A stretch of 35,541 nucleotides of DNA from Candidatus Rifleibacteriota bacterium (GTDB lineage: Bacteria > Muiribacteriota > Ozemobacteria > Ozemobacterales > Ozemobacteraceae), in contig JAQVCG010000017.1 of the NCBI GenBank assembly GCA_028689875.1, positions 1 to 35,541 on the forward strand. Reading direction: 5' to 3'. The notes under the pieces were generated by a model that searched no databases, was not told where the DNA came from, and saw only the letters and a program-made list of their open reading frames with translations. The position numbers and the translations under genes were made by a program. Each line of letters opens with the position of its first letter. Position 1 is the stretch's first letter. Below are positions 81-35,541 of this stretch, piece by piece.

Positions 81-184
81 TTTTTTACCTAACAGTTTAA
101 ACTTTTTACATTTACATAAGTATTCTATATTAAGTATACGTAAAAATTACCGGTTGTGTAGTAAAAAAAATAATTATTTTGAGG

Positions 185-213
185 TTACTGTACATTAAAA
201 AAAAGTGTATAAT
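185..213 (+). promoter_or_regulatory. Candidate promoter of the LysM gene
   Basis: A perfect TATAAT lies at 208-213, about 37 bases before the chosen ATG at 250. The -35 side is poor (TTACTG at 185-190, 17-base spacing). The 11-base string AAAGTGTATAA occurs twice, at 202-212 and 220-230, so a second -10-like element (TATAAC) sits 18 bases downstream. The region is AT-rich. Confidence 0.4.
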
Positions 214-249
214 CATATGAAAGTGTATAACTATTCGGAGGTTGGCATT

Positions 250-1881
250 ATGAAAAAAACTGGTTTGTTTATATTTATTTTTATCGGTCTGTTGTTAGCA
301 GCGCCGACATCATATGCAAATGATTCATCGGGATTGTTCAATGTTTCGACAGAAATTGAACAGCCGGCAGTTAATATTCCAGTGTCCTCTGAAGAAGTCC
401 AGGTAACAGTTACATCCACTTCGGCACCTGAAACTGAAGAAGCTCCTGCTGCTACAGCTCCCGTTGTTGAGTCTGAGCCGATTTCTTATACAATAGAGAG
501 CGACGATAATCTTTGGTCTCTTGCTGAAAAATACCTTGGCGATGGTAACCGATACCCCGAAATCGTAGAGGCAAACAAAGATAAATATCCTTCTTTGGTT
601 AGTAACCCAGATTTAATACACCCAGGCTGGAATCTCGAAATACCACCCAAAGAAGAGCCTAAAAAAGAAGAACCCAAAAAAGACGAGCCCAAGGTAGAAT
701 CCAAAGATGAAAAGGGCGCAGAAGACGTTGTAGTTGAACGCGATTCCGGAACAAACGTAGATAAAGTTGTTCAGGTTAAGCCCATGACTACTGTTCAGAA
801 GCTTAAAAAGCTCAACAATGCCCTCGACAAAATCAATAAAGATATTAAATCTGACGGCTATAAAATCACTGATCTAACCGAAAAAACCGTAAGAGATCTT
901 ATCGACAAAGGTTACATGACCGAAGAAGAATGGATGTCAATGAATCCGCCCGAAGGCTGGAGCTACGACGTCAGATTCGGCAAAGTAACTCTTGTTAATA
1001 AACGCAACAGACCTCTTACAAATCTTGAACTTCTTGTAATGACTGTTAAAGACGTAATTAATATAAATAAAGACAAAAAAGAAGCTGAAAAAGCTAAATT
1101 AGAAGCAGACAAGGCTAAAACAACAGAAGTCAAAAAAGAAGAACCCAAGAAAGAAGAAGTTAAAGAGCTCTCAGACGAAGAATTAGCCAAAAACGATTCT
1201 GAATCTAAGCAAAAGTCATATGACGAAGCAATGGGAAGAACAACAAAAACTGCAACTCAAACTCAGACTGCAACTCAAACCGCCACTGAAACAGAAGTTA
1301 AGAAAGCGGTAGAAGAAGTTAAAGTCGGTGCTGACAAACTTTATGCAGATGCAATCACAGAAATTGGTGTTCCCGATATAAGAAGCGTAAAACAAAGAGA
1401 TTATTCTAAGGCTATGAGCGCTCTTACCAGACTCTTGACCTGGAAAGAAGAAAACAAATACGCTTATGTTCTTAACGGCTATTCAAACATCATAGATCTC
1501 GAAAAAACTCTCAAATCTTCTCAAGAAACTTATGTTAAAAAGGTCGATAAAGATGATACCGGTTGGTTCGGCGGCAGCATTAAATCTGCCGGCAATAACG
1601 TAGAATCAAACAAAAAGACCCTTAAAAAAGCTTGGACTTCACTCGAAGAAGCTATCAAAATAGCAAAAGCTAAAGCTGACGAAAGCGCCAAGAAAATTGA
1701 AGAAAACAAAAAGCTTGCCGAAAGTCTTGCAAAGCAAAAAGAAGAAATCGGATACGACACCTCTAAAGCAAAAGAACTGCAACAAATTGCAAAACAGATT
1801 AAAGACCTCGAATCTGACAACAAAGATCTTCAAAAAGACGTTGATGCATACAAAGATATAGTAGCAGTTTTTAAAGTTTGA
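250..1881 (+). CDS. Secreted LysM-domain, Lys/Glu-rich coiled-coil envelope protein
   Basis: Exported protein of 543 residues. The start at ATG 250 is chosen because GGAGG at 237-241 sits 8 bases upstream and a signal peptide follows directly (MKKTGLF, hydrophobic core, ...TSYA|ND). An upstream in-frame GTG at 205 overlaps the -10 box and is rejected. After a Thr/Pro/Glu-rich linker, residues about 79-131 form a LysM domain (SYTIESDDNLWSLAEKYLG ... NPDLIHPGWNLEIPP), a family that binds peptidoglycan or other N-acetylglucosamine polymers. The rest is low complexity: KKEEPKKDEP repeats, a Thr-Gln repeat near residue 340, then a long charged helical tail likely to form coiled coil (about 440-535). 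It probably links the cell wall to another structure. The mature N-terminus (SGLFNVSTE) resembles that of the protein at 7150-8520. Confidence 0.85.
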   Translation: MKKTGLFIFIFIGLLLAAPTSYANDSSGLFNVSTEIEQPAVNIPVSSEEVQVTVTSTSAPETEEAPAATAPVVESEPISYTIESDDNLWSLAEKYLGDGNRYPEIVEANKDKYPSLVSNPDLIHPGWNLEIPPKEEPKKEEPKKDEPKVESKDEKGAEDVVVERDSGTNVDKVVQVKPMTTVQKLKKLNNALDKINKDIKSDGYKITDLTEKTVRDLIDKGYMTEEEWMSMNPPEGWSYDVRFGKVTLVNKRNRPLTNLELLVMTVKDVININKDKKEAEKAKLEADKAKTTEVKKEEPKKEEVKELSDEELAKNDSESKQKSYDEAMGRTTKTATQTQTATQTATETEVKKAVEEVKVGADKLYADAITEIGVPDIRSVKQRDYSKAMSALTRLLTWKEENKYAYVLNGYSNIIDLEKTLKSSQETYVKKVDKDDTGWFGGSIKSAGNNVESNKKTLKKAWTSLEEAIKIAKAKADESAKKIEENKKLAESLAKQKEEIGYDTSKAKELQQIAKQIKDLESDNKDLQKDVDAYKDIVAVFKV

Positions 1882-1887
1882 AATTTG

Positions 1888-1917
1888 TTGAATAAGTTGT
1901 TCTAAATAGTTTATAAT
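1888..1917 (+). promoter_or_regulatory. Candidate promoter of the TolB-like gene, abutting a terminator
   Basis: TTGAAT (1888-1893) and TATAAT (1912-1917) are separated by 18 bases. The predicted transcription start near 1924 falls inside the left arm of the terminator hairpin at 1919-1944, so a transcript begun here could not fold that terminator. Confidence 0.45.
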
Positions 1918-1918
1918 T

Positions 1919-1948
1919 CCGGTTGAAGGGTTTCTTTCAACCGGTTTT
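1919..1948 (+). terminator. Rho-independent terminator of the LysM gene
   Basis: A perfect 9-bp stem, CCGGTTGAA (1919-1927) with TTCAACCGG (1936-1944), has an 8-base loop and is followed by TTTT. It lies 38 bases after the LysM gene stop. Confidence 0.8.
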
Positions 1949-2003
1949 ATTTACCGTTTAATTAGAAAACACGTGTGTAATACAAGTATGAAAGGTGTAT
2001 CAG

Positions 2004-2837
2004 ATGCAGAAGAAAATATTAACTGTTTTAATGATGACTTTGATTATTTTTTCGGGGTTTGCTGCCAGCGCACAAGAAAAACCCACAGGAAAAATTTATT
2101 TTATCGATGCCCCAACTACCGATAAATCATTTTTAGCTTCAATAAATGCCGATGGCACCGGTAAAGAGAGACTTACACCCGCTTTTAATAACTTGAGTTT
2201 CCCTATTTATAATGAAAAAAGCGGTTGGATAGGCTTTACTAACAAAACTCCGTCTCTCGAATCAGAAATTTATCTTATGACTCGTAAAAGAGTTAAAAGA
2301 GTCTTAATAGGCGCAACCTTAGAAGACTTTTCACCCGACGGAAAATCTCTTTTATATTCAACTACAGATGGAAAAGCTGAATTGTACATATATAACATTG
2401 CAAGAAAAAGATCTGTTAAAATATCTCAAGACCTTAAAATCGTTTCTGCAAAATGGTCTCCTGACAGCGAATGGATAATAGCAAGCGCTTTTACAGACGA
2501 TGGAACCACTGATTTATATCTTATTTCAACTCTTGCACAGGGAATAAAAAGACTTACAGATACAAAAAAAGTTAACGAGTCTTTTCCCATATTCTGCAAT
2601 GACAGCAAAACTATTCTTTATACAACCGACAGATACGGAGACTACGAAATGGAATACATGGCCGTTGAAACTCCCGATATTTACAGACCGGCCATTCACG
2701 GTTTGTTTCCAACATTGTCGTCTGATAACGAATTTATGGCCTATGAGAGCTCTTCAAGGATAATGATTGCCTCTAAAACCGGCCTTAACCCAACCTTTTT
2801 GACAGAAGGTAAAACCCCGTTCTGGATAAAAAAATAA
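2004..2837 (+). CDS. Secreted TolB-like (PD40) beta-propeller protein
   Basis: Exported protein of 277 residues. ATG 2004 is preferred over GTG 1995 because AAAGG (1991-1995) is 8 bases upstream and overlaps the GTG. A signal peptide is clear: MQKKILTVLMMT, hydrophobic core, GFAASAQ. The mature part shows repeating beta-propeller blades of the WD40-like/PD40 type found in TolB: FSPDGKSLLYST, WSPDSEWIIAS, FCNDSKTILYTT and the partner strand pattern 'DLYLIS', 'ELYIYN', 'EIYLMT'. About five blades can be made out. The length is much shorter than TolB (about 430) and there is no TolB N-terminal domain, so it is not called tolB. It stands alone, so the role (periplasmic scaffold or ligand binding) is inference. 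Confidence 0.75.
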   Translation: MQKKILTVLMMTLIIFSGFAASAQEKPTGKIYFIDAPTTDKSFLASINADGTGKERLTPAFNNLSFPIYNEKSGWIGFTNKTPSLESEIYLMTRKRVKRVLIGATLEDFSPDGKSLLYSTTDGKAELYIYNIARKRSVKISQDLKIVSAKWSPDSEWIIASAFTDDGTTDLYLISTLAQGIKRLTDTKKVNESFPIFCNDSKTILYTTDRYGDYEMEYMAVETPDIYRPAIHGLFPTLSSDNEFMAYESSSRIMIASKTGLNPTFLTEGKTPFWIKK

Positions 2838-2856
2838 AAATAAAAGCAAATTAAAA

Positions 2857-2885
2857 TTGACCTACAGCTATATGAATTGTAATAT
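2857..2885 (+). promoter_or_regulatory. Promoter of the UspA-family gene
   Basis: TTGACC (2857-2862) and TAATAT (2880-2885) are separated by exactly 17 bases. The predicted start gives a leader of about 24 bases with a GGGAAGG ribosome-binding sequence before ATG 2916. Confidence 0.6.
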
Positions 2886-2915
2886 AAAATAAAATACTAA
2901 TGGGAAGGTTCTTTC

Positions 2916-3392
2916 ATGCTTAAACTAAAGAAGATTCTTGTACCTATTGATTTTTCAGCCAACTCTGAACTTGCTATTGCTTATGCTACAAGTCTTGCTA
3001 GCGAATATAATGCTCAGATTCATCTTTTGAACGTTGTTGAAGAAGAAGCAATGACAGCCGGAATCGGCGGCGATCCTCTTAATACTGTGCAACGCTGGAA
3101 AGACCAAGCTTTAAAGCAACTTTCCAACTTTGTTCCCGAACAGTTCAGAGACATTGACTTTATTAAACAAGTTCGCGGCGGTCTTGTTTATGAAGCTATC
3201 ATTGAATACGCTAAAGAATACGAAATTAACCTTATCGTAATGGGCGCTCACGGCAAAACAGGTTTCATTGATTCTTGGTTGGGCGGAACCACATACGAAA
3301 TAGCGAGAAAAGCTCCTTGCGCAGTGTTAACAGTAAAACCCGACGGACGTGGGTTTGTTGACGGGCACGGTGAAGTTCGCGACAATTCGTAA
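2916..3392 (+). CDS. Universal stress protein, UspA family
   Basis: Cytoplasmic protein of 158 residues, a normal length for a single UspA domain. The opening KKILVPIDFSANSELAIAYA and the late GAHGKTGFIDSWLGG match the family fold. The ATP-binding loop pattern G-x2-G-x9-G-(S/T) is nearly complete: GAHG, nine residues, then GG followed by TT. The Ser/Thr position is therefore Gly, and whether it binds ATP is open. C-terminal PCAVLTVKP is the usual last beta-strand, followed by about 15 extra polar residues. It is a single-gene unit with its own promoter at 2857-2885. Its terminator candidate lies inside the 3' end of the facing U32 gene. Family members help survival under stress; the exact role is unknown. 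Confidence 0.9.
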   Translation: MLKLKKILVPIDFSANSELAIAYATSLASEYNAQIHLLNVVEEEAMTAGIGGDPLNTVQRWKDQALKQLSNFVPEQFRDIDFIKQVRGGLVYEAIIEYAKEYEINLIVMGAHGKTGFIDSWLGGTTYEIARKAPCAVLTVKPDGRGFVDGHGEVRDNS

Positions 3393-3413
3393 TAATCGAT
3401 TTAATACTGTGAT

Positions 3414-5621
3414 TTAACCAAGCATCCGATTCAAGTTTTCAAAGACTTGAGTCGGATTTTCATTATCTGCTATAGCCACGTCAATTTGATAAGAAACATT
3501 TTTTCGCATGTTCAATGAAGCCGGTTTGTCTTTTAAAAACATGCCTTCACAGCCGTTTCCGAGGTTCATCATAAAGAAATTGTCGTTATGTGAGTTTGTG
3601 GCTGTAATGCCCGGTTGTAACGCATTTGGAAACCTTGTATATGAAACCAGCGGGTTCCAGGCCCGGCCTGTGCGAATTGCAACTAATGAATCCGGTATGC
3701 TGTCTTCGGCCCATTCTTTTGATAAAACCGCATCTAATCGTTGTTTTCGAATGTAGTCCAATGCGCTTAAATTGCATACATTAAAGCACCAGTCAAACAC
3801 AAAAGTTAAGTTCGAAAACATTTCAGCCAGAGCGAACCCTTCCCAGCCGAAGCATCTGAACTCGCCTTTTTTAAGCCCTTTAAGCTCTTTTTGTATGCTT
3901 ACCATTTGTTCGTGGTTAAATATGGGTGGCAGCCAGTAGGTTATTTTCTGCGGGTCTATTTTGCGCGCTGCTTTTTCTTTGTCAGAAAACCAGGGTATTA
4001 TAAATTTGTCGGCAGGCAGCTCTTTTTCAAACGGAAATTTATTATTAAATATTTTTAAATAAACTTCGCTTTTAACATTTTTGTTCTCAAAGTGTTCTGA
4101 GTAGTCGGGTGCTGCCGTGATTACAGGAAAAGGCCTTTTTTGTGGCGGCGGTAACTGGTCTAGTTTGCTAATCGCCTCAACCAGACTTCGTTTTAATTTT
4201 TTAAGAGCCCCGGCACTTAAGTGCAGCCTGTCTCCAAGCATTGTCGAGACATGTCTGCCTGCTCTGTATAAATCGCCTAATACGGCAAATTTATCTTGCA
4301 GCGGCCCGTCTTTGAGGCCGGTGTTAAGCGCCGGGTGCAGTAGTTCTTCGCTTTCAAGGCGCAATTTATGTTCGTTGATTATGGCTTCTACTGCTAATGG
4401 AGTTTGATCGTATCCCGACCAAAACAAATCAATGGGAAGCCTTTCCCAGTCTTTGTTCCACATTGTTTCGTGATAGCTTTCCACGGCTTTTGAAGTGCGC
4501 CTCAACTCTACTTTTGCGCCCAAATCTCTTGGTAGTCCTCTTACCCAAAGGCAGTCTTTTCTCTTTTTATCCGGTTTTATATAGGTTATGCGTGCGCCGG
4601 CTTTAATTCCGTTTATAACCCAAAACAGCCCGTCTCCGGCTTTTAACGGCGCCTTAATCAACAGTTCGGTTAATCCGTCGTTTGTTTTGCCGGTTGTTAT
4701 TGCGGTTAGCACACCTTCGCGGCCCGATGTTTTTCCGGTTTTCCAATTTTGTGCTTGGGGTATACCTCGGTAAAACCCTTTGCCCGAAGCTCTCGAAAAG
4801 ACTTCAGAAAGCTCATTTTGCTCAAAGGTCCCTTCGTCTAGCGCTTTTCGGTATTCTGATACTACCTGATACACGTATTCAGGGCTTTTCATGCGCCCTT
4901 CGATTTTAAGCGAAGTTACTCCGATTTTAGTTAAATCTCCGACTTCTTCAATCAGTCTTAAATCTTTCGGGCTAAAAAGAAATGTTCCTTTTTTGTCTTT
5001 TGAGGTCATGTATTCTTTGCGGCATGGCTGGGCGCAAGTGCCTCTGTTACCGGATCTCGTGCCGAGTGATATGCTCCAAAAACATCTGCCCGATATGCTG
5101 TAACACATAGCACCATGAACAAAAACTTCGATTTCGAATGGGCATGACTTAACTAAATGTTCAATTTCTTGCGCCGTTGTTTCGCGGGGCAAAATAACTC
5201 TGGTTATTCCGAGTTCTTTAAGCTGCTTTATTCCGCCTTGTCCGAACCATGTTGCCTGTGTGCTTAAGTGAATCGGAATTTTGCTCTTTCGTCTTCTCAG
5301 TTCTGCTGCGATTCCTAGGTCTTGCACAATTAAAGCGTCGGGCTGCAAAATTTCATAAAAATCGAGAGTTTCTTTAAGCAGTTTTTGTTCATTTTCAAAT
5401 ACTAATGTGTTTAAAGTAATATAAAGCTTTCTTTGCAAAGAACGGGTGACCCTTCGCGCCCATTTCAGCGACTGTTCATCGAAGTTTGCCGCAAACGCCC
5501 TTGCACCGAATCTTTTTCCGGCCAGATAAACTGCATCAGCTCCGGCTGTCAGGGCTGCCTTTAAACCCGATATGCTGCCGGCCGGTGCTAACAGCTCTGT
5601 TTTATTCTTTTGCTCAGACAT
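3414..5621 (-). CDS. U32-family protein, RlhA-like 23S rRNA hydroxylase candidate
   Basis: 735 residues, last gene of the leftward operon. The N-terminal half is a U32 'peptidase' TIM-like domain (LLAPAGSISGLKAALTAGADAVYLAG). The signature region MCYSISGRC ... GNRGTCAQPCR carries the four cysteines that bind an iron-sulphur cluster in this family. The second half matches the extra DUF3656-type region (DLYRAGRHVSTMLGDRLHLSAG) found in long members. Studied members are RNA or ubiquinone hydroxylases: RlhA acts on 23S rRNA, TrhP on tRNA, and UbiU/V on ubiquinone. The long two-domain layout fits RlhA best, but substrate assignment is inference and old names such as collagenase should be avoided. 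The ATG follows the aroQ stop by 16 bases with no good ribosome-binding site, suggesting coupled translation. Confidence 0.85.
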   Translation of the reverse strand: MSEQKNKTELLAPAGSISGLKAALTAGADAVYLAGKRFGARAFAANFDEQSLKWARRVTRSLQRKLYITLNTLVFENEQKLLKETLDFYEILQPDALIVQDLGIAAELRRRKSKIPIHLSTQATWFGQGGIKQLKELGITRVILPRETTAQEIEHLVKSCPFEIEVFVHGAMCYSISGRCFWSISLGTRSGNRGTCAQPCRKEYMTSKDKKGTFLFSPKDLRLIEEVGDLTKIGVTSLKIEGRMKSPEYVYQVVSEYRKALDEGTFEQNELSEVFSRASGKGFYRGIPQAQNWKTGKTSGREGVLTAITTGKTNDGLTELLIKAPLKAGDGLFWVINGIKAGARITYIKPDKKRKDCLWVRGLPRDLGAKVELRRTSKAVESYHETMWNKDWERLPIDLFWSGYDQTPLAVEAIINEHKLRLESEELLHPALNTGLKDGPLQDKFAVLGDLYRAGRHVSTMLGDRLHLSAGALKKLKRSLVEAISKLDQLPPPQKRPFPVITAAPDYSEHFENKNVKSEVYLKIFNNKFPFEKELPADKFIIPWFSDKEKAARKIDPQKITYWLPPIFNHEQMVSIQKELKGLKKGEFRCFGWEGFALAEMFSNLTFVFDWCFNVCNLSALDYIRKQRLDAVLSKEWAEDSIPDSLVAIRTGRAWNPLVSYTRFPNALQPGITATNSHNDNFFMMNLGNGCEGMFLKDKPASLNMRKNVSYQIDVAIADNENPTQVFENLNRMLG
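3425..3460 (+). terminator. Terminator for uspA embedded in the facing U32 gene
   Basis: An 11-bp stem, TCCGATTCAAG (3425-3435) with CTTGAGTCGGA (3446-3456), has one G-U pair and a 10-base loop, followed by TTTT. It reads in the direction of the UspA gene, 33 bases past its stop, but lies inside the last codons of the U32 coding sequence. Confidence 0.6.
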
Positions 5622-14728: not shown

Positions 14729-14785
14729 GCAAATGTAATTATGAGTACAAATGATAACGCTTGATACTAGAAAGGATTTATCGTC

Positions 14786-15214
14786 ATGCCGAAACTTTAC
14801 GACAAAGAAGAAAAAACGAAATATTTAGCAGCAAAAGCTGATTGGGATAAAATTGACGACGACGAAGAAGAAGATTTGGAAGATTTCGAAGACGACGAAT
14901 TTGATGACTTTGACGACGACGAATTCGAAGACGACGACGAAGATCTAGATGAAGACGATGACTTCGAAGAAGACGAAGACCTCGACGACGACGAATTTGA
15001 CGACGATGAAGATCTCGAAGACGAAGAAGATGACGACTTCGAAGAAGATGAAGACGACGATTTCGAAGAAGAAGATGATGACGACTTCGAAGACGATGAT
15101 GACTTTGAAGACGACGAAGACGACGAAGACGACGACGACTTCGATGATTTCGACGATTTTGATGAAGACGACGACGATGATGATGACGACGACTTCGAAG
15201 ATGATGACGAATAA
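14786..15214 (+). CDS. Extremely acidic Asp/Glu protein
   Basis: 142 residues. A short basic/aromatic head (MPKLYDKEEKTKYLAAKADWDKI) is followed by 119 residues made only of Asp, Glu, Phe and Leu: 101 acidic, 14 Phe and 4 Leu. The Phe recur in DDDF, DDEF and DDDDF units. AAAGGA lies 9 bases before the ATG, and there is a strong promoter and a strong terminator, so it is a real single gene. The tail recalls the acidic C-terminus of the RNA polymerase delta subunit, or nucleic-acid-mimic and calcium-binding polyacidic proteins. There is no delta winged-helix head, so no function is assigned. It faces a putative winged-helix protein. The mixture of GAT/GAC and GAA codons argues against simple triplet expansion. 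Confidence 0.8.
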   Translation: MPKLYDKEEKTKYLAAKADWDKIDDDEEEDLEDFEDDEFDDFDDDEFEDDDEDLDEDDDFEEDEDLDDDEFDDDEDLEDEEDDDFEEDEDDDFEEEDDDDFEDDDDFEDDEDDEDDDDFDDFDDFDEDDDDDDDDDFEDDDE

Positions 15215-34196: not shown

Positions 34197-34231
34197 AAAA
34201 ATGCTCTCACAAATGTGGGAGCATTTTTTTT
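34197..34231 (+). terminator. Rho-independent terminator of nifJ
   Basis: ATGCTCTCAC (34201-34210) pairs with GTGGGAGCAT (34215-34224), with one G-U pair and a 4-base loop. It is extended by AAAA/TTTT and ends in eight T's. Confidence 0.92.
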
Positions 34232-34291
34232 ACCAATTTAGCTAGATGTGATAGGATATAAAAGGTGGATATTTAAAGTGGAGGTATTGAA

Positions 34292-35541
34292 TTGTTTATT
34301 AAAAAATTGTTGTGCTGTGTTTCTATTTTTGTATTTGTTCTTGGAATAGCCGTAGCGGGCGATCTCGCTGATTCGTATCCCGGTAATGCCCTGATGTTTG
34401 CGCGCGTTAATATTCAGGATTATATCAACTCTTACATTGCAGACAGCAAAGGGAACGAGAAGAACATATTAGACCAAGTTATATCGGCCTTAAAAAAGAA
34501 TCACGGAATAAACGTTTCAAATGATATTAAATCTTTTGGTATGTTTATGTTTGATTCGTTAGAGCCAAGCTCTTACGGGGTGCCCGGTTTCAATTTAGTT
34601 TTCTTTGTTGAAGGCAATTTCGAGCCCGAAAAGCATATTTCAGTAATTGCGAAGATTATTGAAGGCAAGGAAGGCACTCCTGTAAAGTCCGGCAATATAA
34701 ATTACAATAATAGTAAGGTTCCTGCCATAAAATGGAAAGACGGGCTTTTTTTCTTTAAAGACAATAATACGCTGATACATTGTAAGAACAATACTTCGAA
34801 GTATTTGCTTAACAATAAGATAACATTTGGCAAAGCTCCTGCAGATGTAGCGAGAGTAATAAATGAAAACCGTTCGTTTGTTTGTTTTTCGGACAATTTC
34901 TGGACCAACAGCACCGTATCAAAGAATTTTGCAAAGGTACCTGCACCGGTTCAAGGTTTTCTTTCAAATCTGAGAATTTTGGCAGGCAAGTATGATGAAG
35001 GTTTTTTAAGTTTATGGATAACTTTTGCAAATCCGGAAGGTGCGAATGGTACTTTTACGCTTTTAGACCAATTACGCGCAAAATTTAACAATGATTCGGA
35101 CCAAGCAATTTCAAAATTTACCGCCAATATAGACAAGCTTTCGGCAAATGAATTGGTCAGCGAAGGATCTCAAGTAATGTCTCTTGCCCGCATGAAAGAT
35201 TTAATTGCTGAAATAAACTTATCTGTTCAAGAAGAAAAGACGTTGTTTATAAAGGGCCCGGTACTTGATTCACATCTAATTCTGGCCGGAATCGGCCTTT
35301 CAGCTGCTATTGCCATTCCGAATTTTCAAGCCGCGAGGGGGCAAGCACGGCAGAAAGCGTGTTTCGCCAATCAGCGCGTTCTTATGGGGGCAATTGAAAT
35401 GTATAACATGGATCACGATGAAATGATCAAGGAAATAACTCCCGATATCTTTAATGCCGGCGGTTTATTGCTAAGAGAAAAATATTTGGCAAATCCATTA
35501 AGAATGCCTGACCCTGATTGTCTCATTTATTCAGAAGGCGA
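34292..35541 (+). CDS. Secreted protein with internal type IV pilin-like module (C-terminus cut by window edge)
   Basis: At least 416 residues, open to the right edge with no stop. The start is TTG 34292, with GTGGAGG about 10 bases upstream. A signal peptide follows (MFIKKLLCCVSIFVFVLGIAVAG). Residues about 30-325 form one or more soluble domains beginning YPGNALMFARVNIQDYI and with NVSNDIKSFGMFMF; this loosely recalls DUF3352-like proteins, but I am unsure. At residue 329 begins a segment like the N-terminal helix of type IV pilins and pseudopilins: LILAGIGLSAAIAIPNFQ, AARGQARQKACFANQ, then RVLMGAIEMYNMD. The prepilin peptidase site (Gly-Phe-Thr-Leu-x-Glu) is missing and the module is internal. 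It stands after the nifJ terminator as a separate unit. Confidence 0.75.
   Translation, partial: MFIKKLLCCVSIFVFVLGIAVAGDLADSYPGNALMFARVNIQDYINSYIADSKGNEKNILDQVISALKKNHGINVSNDIKSFGMFMFDSLEPSSYGVPGFNLVFFVEGNFEPEKHISVIAKIIEGKEGTPVKSGNINYNNSKVPAIKWKDGLFFFKDNNTLIHCKNNTSKYLLNNKITFGKAPADVARVINENRSFVCFSDNFWTNSTVSKNFAKVPAPVQGFLSNLRILAGKYDEGFLSLWITFANPEGANGTFTLLDQLRAKFNNDSDQAISKFTANIDKLSANELVSEGSQVMSLARMKDLIAEINLSVQEEKTLFIKGPVLDSHLILAGIGLSAAIAIPNFQAARGQARQKACFANQRVLMGAIEMYNMDHDEMIKEITPDIFNAGGLLLREKYLANPLRMPDPDCLIYSEG

Follow-up and report, generated by a model that had tools for sequence, protein, structure and literature searches.

A leaderless, pilin-derived module at the C-terminal end of putatively Sec-exported proteins, with a tentative role in docking to the membrane or pseudopilus

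The open reading frame (ORF) at the right end of the window (the whole 35,541-nucleotide contig G000:C112, from a 70.75% complete genome) encodes a protein in which a Sec-type signal peptide and a soluble domain of about 300 residues precede a degenerate internal pilin, consisting from residue 329 onwards of a short hydrophobic helix, an alpha1-C region and a Cys/His head. The initial annotation had described this order as Sec signal, soluble part and pilin-like part without a prepilin site; the description is correct, and the order is conserved in related genomes. We suggest, tentatively and with a probability of about 0.42, that the protein is an 'inverted modular pilin', an exported protein that would dock to the membrane or a pseudopilus through its pilin-derived tail without prepilin peptidase.

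The ORF lies at 34,292-35,539 on the forward strand (416 aa) and stops where the contig does, some 20 aa short of completion judging from homologues. Its start codon, as read from the sequence, is TTG, preceded by a GGAGG ribosome-binding site, and the gene probably forms a separate transcription unit, since an inverted repeat followed by a T run, resembling a terminator hairpin (TGCTC...GAGCA; 34,201-34,232, forward strand), lies between it and the upstream ORF of 1188 aa. Direct reading places the Sec-type signal peptide at residues 1-22 (MFIKKLLCCVSIFVFVLGIAVA; 34,292-34,357, forward strand), where signal peptidase I would likely cleave at AVA/GD, and the homologues also start signal-peptide-like. 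The soluble extracytoplasmic domain (residues 23-323; 34,358-35,260, forward strand; family profile A3, AF2 and Foldseek), with a predicted TP0453-like fold, is followed by the short hydrophobic helix, residues 329-345 (LILAGIGLSAAIAIPNF; 35,276-35,326, forward strand), which corresponds to approximately pilin positions 8-24 without G-F-T-L-I-E. The sequence then runs as QAARGQARQKAC up to the Cys at 357 and as FANQRVLMGAIEMYNMD up to 374, and profile and alignment assign residues 346-374 (35,327-35,413, forward strand), with Cys357 and EMYNMD, to the pilin alpha1-C region. Of the module's C-terminal head (YLxxP...PDPDC...; 35,414-35,539, forward strand), about 20 residues are absent by homologue comparison, the contig stopping before C-x2-H-G. 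Elsewhere in the window, an ORF of 147 aa (14,771-15,211) is extremely acidic, with Asp/Glu runs, and a gene neighbourhood resembling the one around it occurs at L102 ~157-4387.

The likeness of the module to pilins far exceeds what chance would produce at the sequence level, with homology of both alpha1 and head to canonical type IV pilins/pseudopilins. An HMM built on 15 GFTLIE prepilins of the window's phylum matched the ORF at E 1.4e-27, as the sole match among all window ORFs, and the closest canonical prepilin was 53% identical across the window module. A module profile of 38 rows retrieved geopilin, GspG and PilA chains from the PDB at E ~1e-6 to 1e-5. Pfam and NCBIfam searches with the full window protein gave weak matches or none, with nothing above cut-off, and the AF2 model, from a three-row alignment, was unusable in the module (pLDDT <35). 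The HMM and PDB matches bear out the pilin-like helix that had been noticed from residue 329 (base 35,276), as Cys357 and MYNMD at 370-374 do the Cys and the MYNMD motif reported after it; as also reported, no Gly/Phe-Thr-Leu-Ile-Glu processing motif stands ahead of the helix. All of the 38 modules have Cys357, and nearly all have the later Cys and His.

The module has lost the beginning of the pilin. The match starts at approximately pilin position 8-13; leader and cleavage site are missing, as is Glu5, foremost among the pilin positions required for filament assembly. A Sec-type signal occupies the N-terminus where a canonical pilin has a class III leader with a G/A-F-x-x-x-E site, and instead of an alpha1-N of ~25 hydrophobic residues with Glu5 the window helix has 17 hydrophobic residues, with a hydropathy of 1.87 vs 2.99 in canonical prepilins. 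Measured over 19 residues, hydropathy is 2.8-3.0 in canonical prepilins, 2.5-2.9 in multi-pass proteins of ~1850 aa, mostly 1.6-2.1 in the window family, 1.1-1.5 in VIT-VWA-type proteins and <1 in inner module copies. Most members of the window family retain the hydrophobic pilin helix, in a form shorter and less hydrophobic than that of a pilin, and some paralogues (L005 180-1442, L121) have lost it. The second paralogue of family f5 retains the helix, with a charged tail terminating the protein shortly after it.

Complete homologues in which all four parts follow one another (signal peptide, soluble domain, helix, module) were found in families f1 (L003/L032, L004, L005, L007, L008, L012), f5 (L023, L025, L031, L098) and f7 (L135), so that the same order recurs in at least eight other genomes and three families, whose soluble domains are just 17-23% identical. 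Tandem paralogues occur at L003/L032, L004, L005, L023, L025, L031, L096 and L098, and pseudopilin-like genes, judged by eye, adjoin only some homologues. A scan of the genome collection returned one locus only, RUG334 L032, which by its identical length and protein is apparently contig G014:C46 again. The soluble domain also stands alone in family members of 330-350 aa and the module in canonical prepilins, and the gene fusion that had been considered earlier is therefore right in the evolutionary sense. On the soluble-domain tree, which is unrooted, one branch (91/80) separates the domain-only proteins from the rest, and the module group takes four changes, either one gain plus losses or several gains. 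Our search of the open-access literature found no paper describing the order of signal, soluble domain and C-terminal pilin.

The family profile A3 of the soluble domain was found in 29 of the 40 phylum genomes. The domain belongs to no Pfam family; DUF3352 (PF11832) did not match the window family, and proteins of a second phylum gave weak, sub-threshold matches only. AF2 modelled the window domain partly (pLDDT roughly 45-83, three-row alignment). The top PDB match in Foldseek was TP0453 of Treponema pallidum for the models of two paralogues, both of low confidence, at E 8e-7 and a TM-score to target of 0.48 for the window protein and at E 1.2e-7 and 0.51-0.53 for the other, with a probability of 1.0 and ~10% identity in both cases. 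TP0453 is a membrane-associated lipoprotein of Treponema that is not known to carry a pilin tail. A TP0453-like fold is thus possibly present in the soluble domain, as a lead from low-confidence models rather than a family membership.

In the docking that we propose, a C-terminal pilin would have been fused to the soluble domain with loss of its class III leader, Glu5 and helix start. The Sec signal peptide would export the ~300-aa domain, so that residues 23-323 would be outside the cytoplasm, and since the leader is lost and the Sec signal is present, the protein would be placed by the Sec pathway and probably not be cut by prepilin peptidase. The tail would most likely be a membrane anchor and docking module, holding the soluble domain, which may bind lipid or other ligands, at the inner membrane and using pilin-pilin-like contacts to sit beside a type IV filament or the pseudopilins of type II secretion. 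Such docking is favoured by the conserved order, the many tandem pairs, the match to the prepilin HMM and the likeness to pilins/pseudopilins of the PDB, and also by the window genome, which has 15 prepilin motifs and one prepilin peptidase, by the fit of the modules to local prepilins, by the T2SSG match in a second phylum, by the tail-anchor-like end of the second f5 paralogue and by the TP0453 matches of two paralogues. It is weakened by the absence of the filament-assembly positions, Glu5 above all, by the window itself, in which no pilus-assembly genes were recognized when the ORF list was read by eye, by the occurrence of pseudopilin-like genes near only some homologues and by the unusable AF2 model of the module. 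An adaptor joining a pilus without prepilin peptidase, as the initial annotation had put it, is compatible with these data, with the missing helix start, the weaker helix and the helix-free state of some paralogues standing against it, while nothing specific was found in favour of the filament capping suggested along with it.

The module also occurs in many other proteins of the phylum. Its profile had matches in all 40 phylum genomes examined, from 1 to 54 per genome, and 71 distinct complete module ORFs comprised 15 canonical prepilins and 56 others, numbers which give no frequency as the loci were partly picked for long ORFs. The non-canonical contexts include VIT-VWA, TPR, lipoprotein-like (among them a protein of 141 aa), SurA-like (by eye) and multi-pass proteins, with up to three module copies per protein. 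Module proteins of ~810-900 aa with a proline-containing, weakly hydrophobic helix occur at L073 (2463-4961, reverse strand), L068, L069, L072, L080-L082, L084-L086 and L088; Pfam confirmed the one at L073 as VIT-VWA. Helix-free copies are found in other exported proteins (L074, L091, L099, L162), including a TPR protein of the window genome (G000:C145; L162 1554-2705, reverse strand) with the module at residues 182-245 between repeats, and a helix-free head copy is present in the lipoprotein-like L012 835-1257. The helix-free paralogues and the helix-free copies in exported proteins indicate that the head must be useful by itself, which counts against docking. Of pilin origin, the head might then be a small Cys/His mini-domain (metal-bound or disulfide-bonded) that has spread and serves generally in extracytoplasmic interactions, with no pilus role. 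The (nearly) invariant Cys and His, the multiple copies and the variety of contexts all argue for this, but most window-family members keep the hydrophobic pilin helix and the modules of each phylum match local prepilins. We consider the mini-domain an unlikely explanation, yet a close rival of docking.

Another possibility, also close to docking and to be ranked just behind the mini-domain, is a plain C-terminal membrane anchor, a single stop-transfer helix with the soluble domain in the periplasm and the head in the cytoplasm, without pilus contact. The hydrophobic run of ~17 residues followed by Arg/Lys-rich sequence would suit it, and anchoring is favoured by the second paralogues of f5, which beyond the soluble domain are helix and charged tail only, like a tail anchor. 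However, strong conservation of the head persists in proteins with a lost or weakened helix (L005 180-1442, L004 176-1447, L121), and helix-free heads occur in signal-peptide proteins and in the lipoprotein-like L012 protein, which are expected outside the cytoplasm. The inverted order raises the question of whether the head is on the periplasmic or the cytoplasmic side: a membrane-spanning helix after an exported domain, as the f5 paralogues suggest, would place the head on the cytoplasmic side, out of reach of pilin heads, whereas a helix that does not span the membrane would leave the head outside, in line with the helix-free heads of exported and lipoprotein-like proteins. An assembly join, a frameshift or a decaying fusion at 35,260-35,280, which the truncated ORF and the single full copy of the gene in an incomplete genome might suggest, is very improbable here and, as to join or frameshift, is ruled out for the family by the complete same-order homologues in other genomes and by the recurrence of this order in another phylum.

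Among the non-canonical modules of the window's phylum, 80 of 85 had their best match in the phylum's own canonical prepilins when compared against pilins and modules of two other phyla. In a control phylum (G054, three genomes), nearly all of 115 module matches were in canonical-size ORFs. In the second phylum with the inverted order (that of G051, 40 genomes), matches were mostly of canonical size as well, and there were also proteins of 525-727 aa that start signal-like and have the pilin module at the C-terminus, as well as one of 2437 aa (L159 2205-9515, reverse strand) whose internal pilin, residues 931-1002, matches prepilins of its own phylum. All nine long-ORF modules of the G051 phylum were closest to own-phylum prepilins, above those of the window's phylum; the module of L156 is 72.5% identical to the L170 prepilin of the same genome, and Pfam T2SSG was above cut-off at residues 466-530 of a lipoprotein-like protein of 596 aa. 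Since the modules of each phylum are closest to its own prepilins, they look like separate recruitments, and the sequence relationships favour several recruitments, each of a locally matched pilin, over a single ancient fusion. The likeness to local prepilins may stem from recent origin and not from pilus contact. It could further be proposed that at least two phyla independently put their own pilins, lacking leader and cleavage site, at the end or in the middle of unrelated exported proteins, which would be Sec-routed and, with no need of prepilin peptidase, fit into the machinery of type IV filaments or secretion; we regard this extension as doubtful.

The N-terminal leader is the usual mark by which pilins are recognized, surveyed and defined, and a conserved class whose pilin is C-terminal or in mid-protein escapes searches by N-terminal motif, including the published survey of modular pilins, which was based on the N-terminal pilin motif (PMC8179133). 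Modular type IV pilins, such as PilB and PilC of Streptococcus sanguinis, combine a functional domain with a small pilin module in many architectures, including vWA (PMC8179133); their module is N-terminal, with a class III signal peptide cut by prepilin peptidase, whereas in window-type proteins it is C-terminal or internal and leaderless, under a Sec-type signal. The window protein inverts the order by which modular pilins are defined, an N-terminal IPR012902/class III module and then an extra domain (PMC8179133). The module shares helix and alpha1-C sequence with GspG/geopilin/ComGC-type pilins (PDB profile E ~1e-6) but lacks their helix start, Glu5 and processing site. PilJ of Clostridioides difficile, with its dual pilin fold (PMC4471445), has more than one pilin head, as do some module proteins, but is itself a pilin of the C. 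difficile type IV pili, unlike them; Pfam PF22473 (PilJ_Pilin) matched the phylum's modules weakly, below cut-off. Because the N-terminal module and the processing site are both missing, window-type proteins are not filed as pilins here, being pilin-derived, inverted in order and Sec-routed. If they do contact filaments, pilin-pilin contacts would be usable without prepilin peptidase or membrane extraction.

Two further arrangements in the phylum were observed. Multi-pass proteins of ~1850-1935 aa (L052 629-6178, reverse strand; L053-L058; L063-L066), some of them contig-truncated, contain an entire pilin in mid-protein, and several of the ~1850-aa proteins keep an internal GKGFRL[VAI]ELMIV at approximately residue 770, possibly an internal prepilin peptidase site. 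At L104 7554-10111 (reverse strand), three module genes lie adjacent on the same strand, encoding a window-family protein of 447 aa, a lipoprotein-like protein of 141 aa and a two-module protein of 213 aa.
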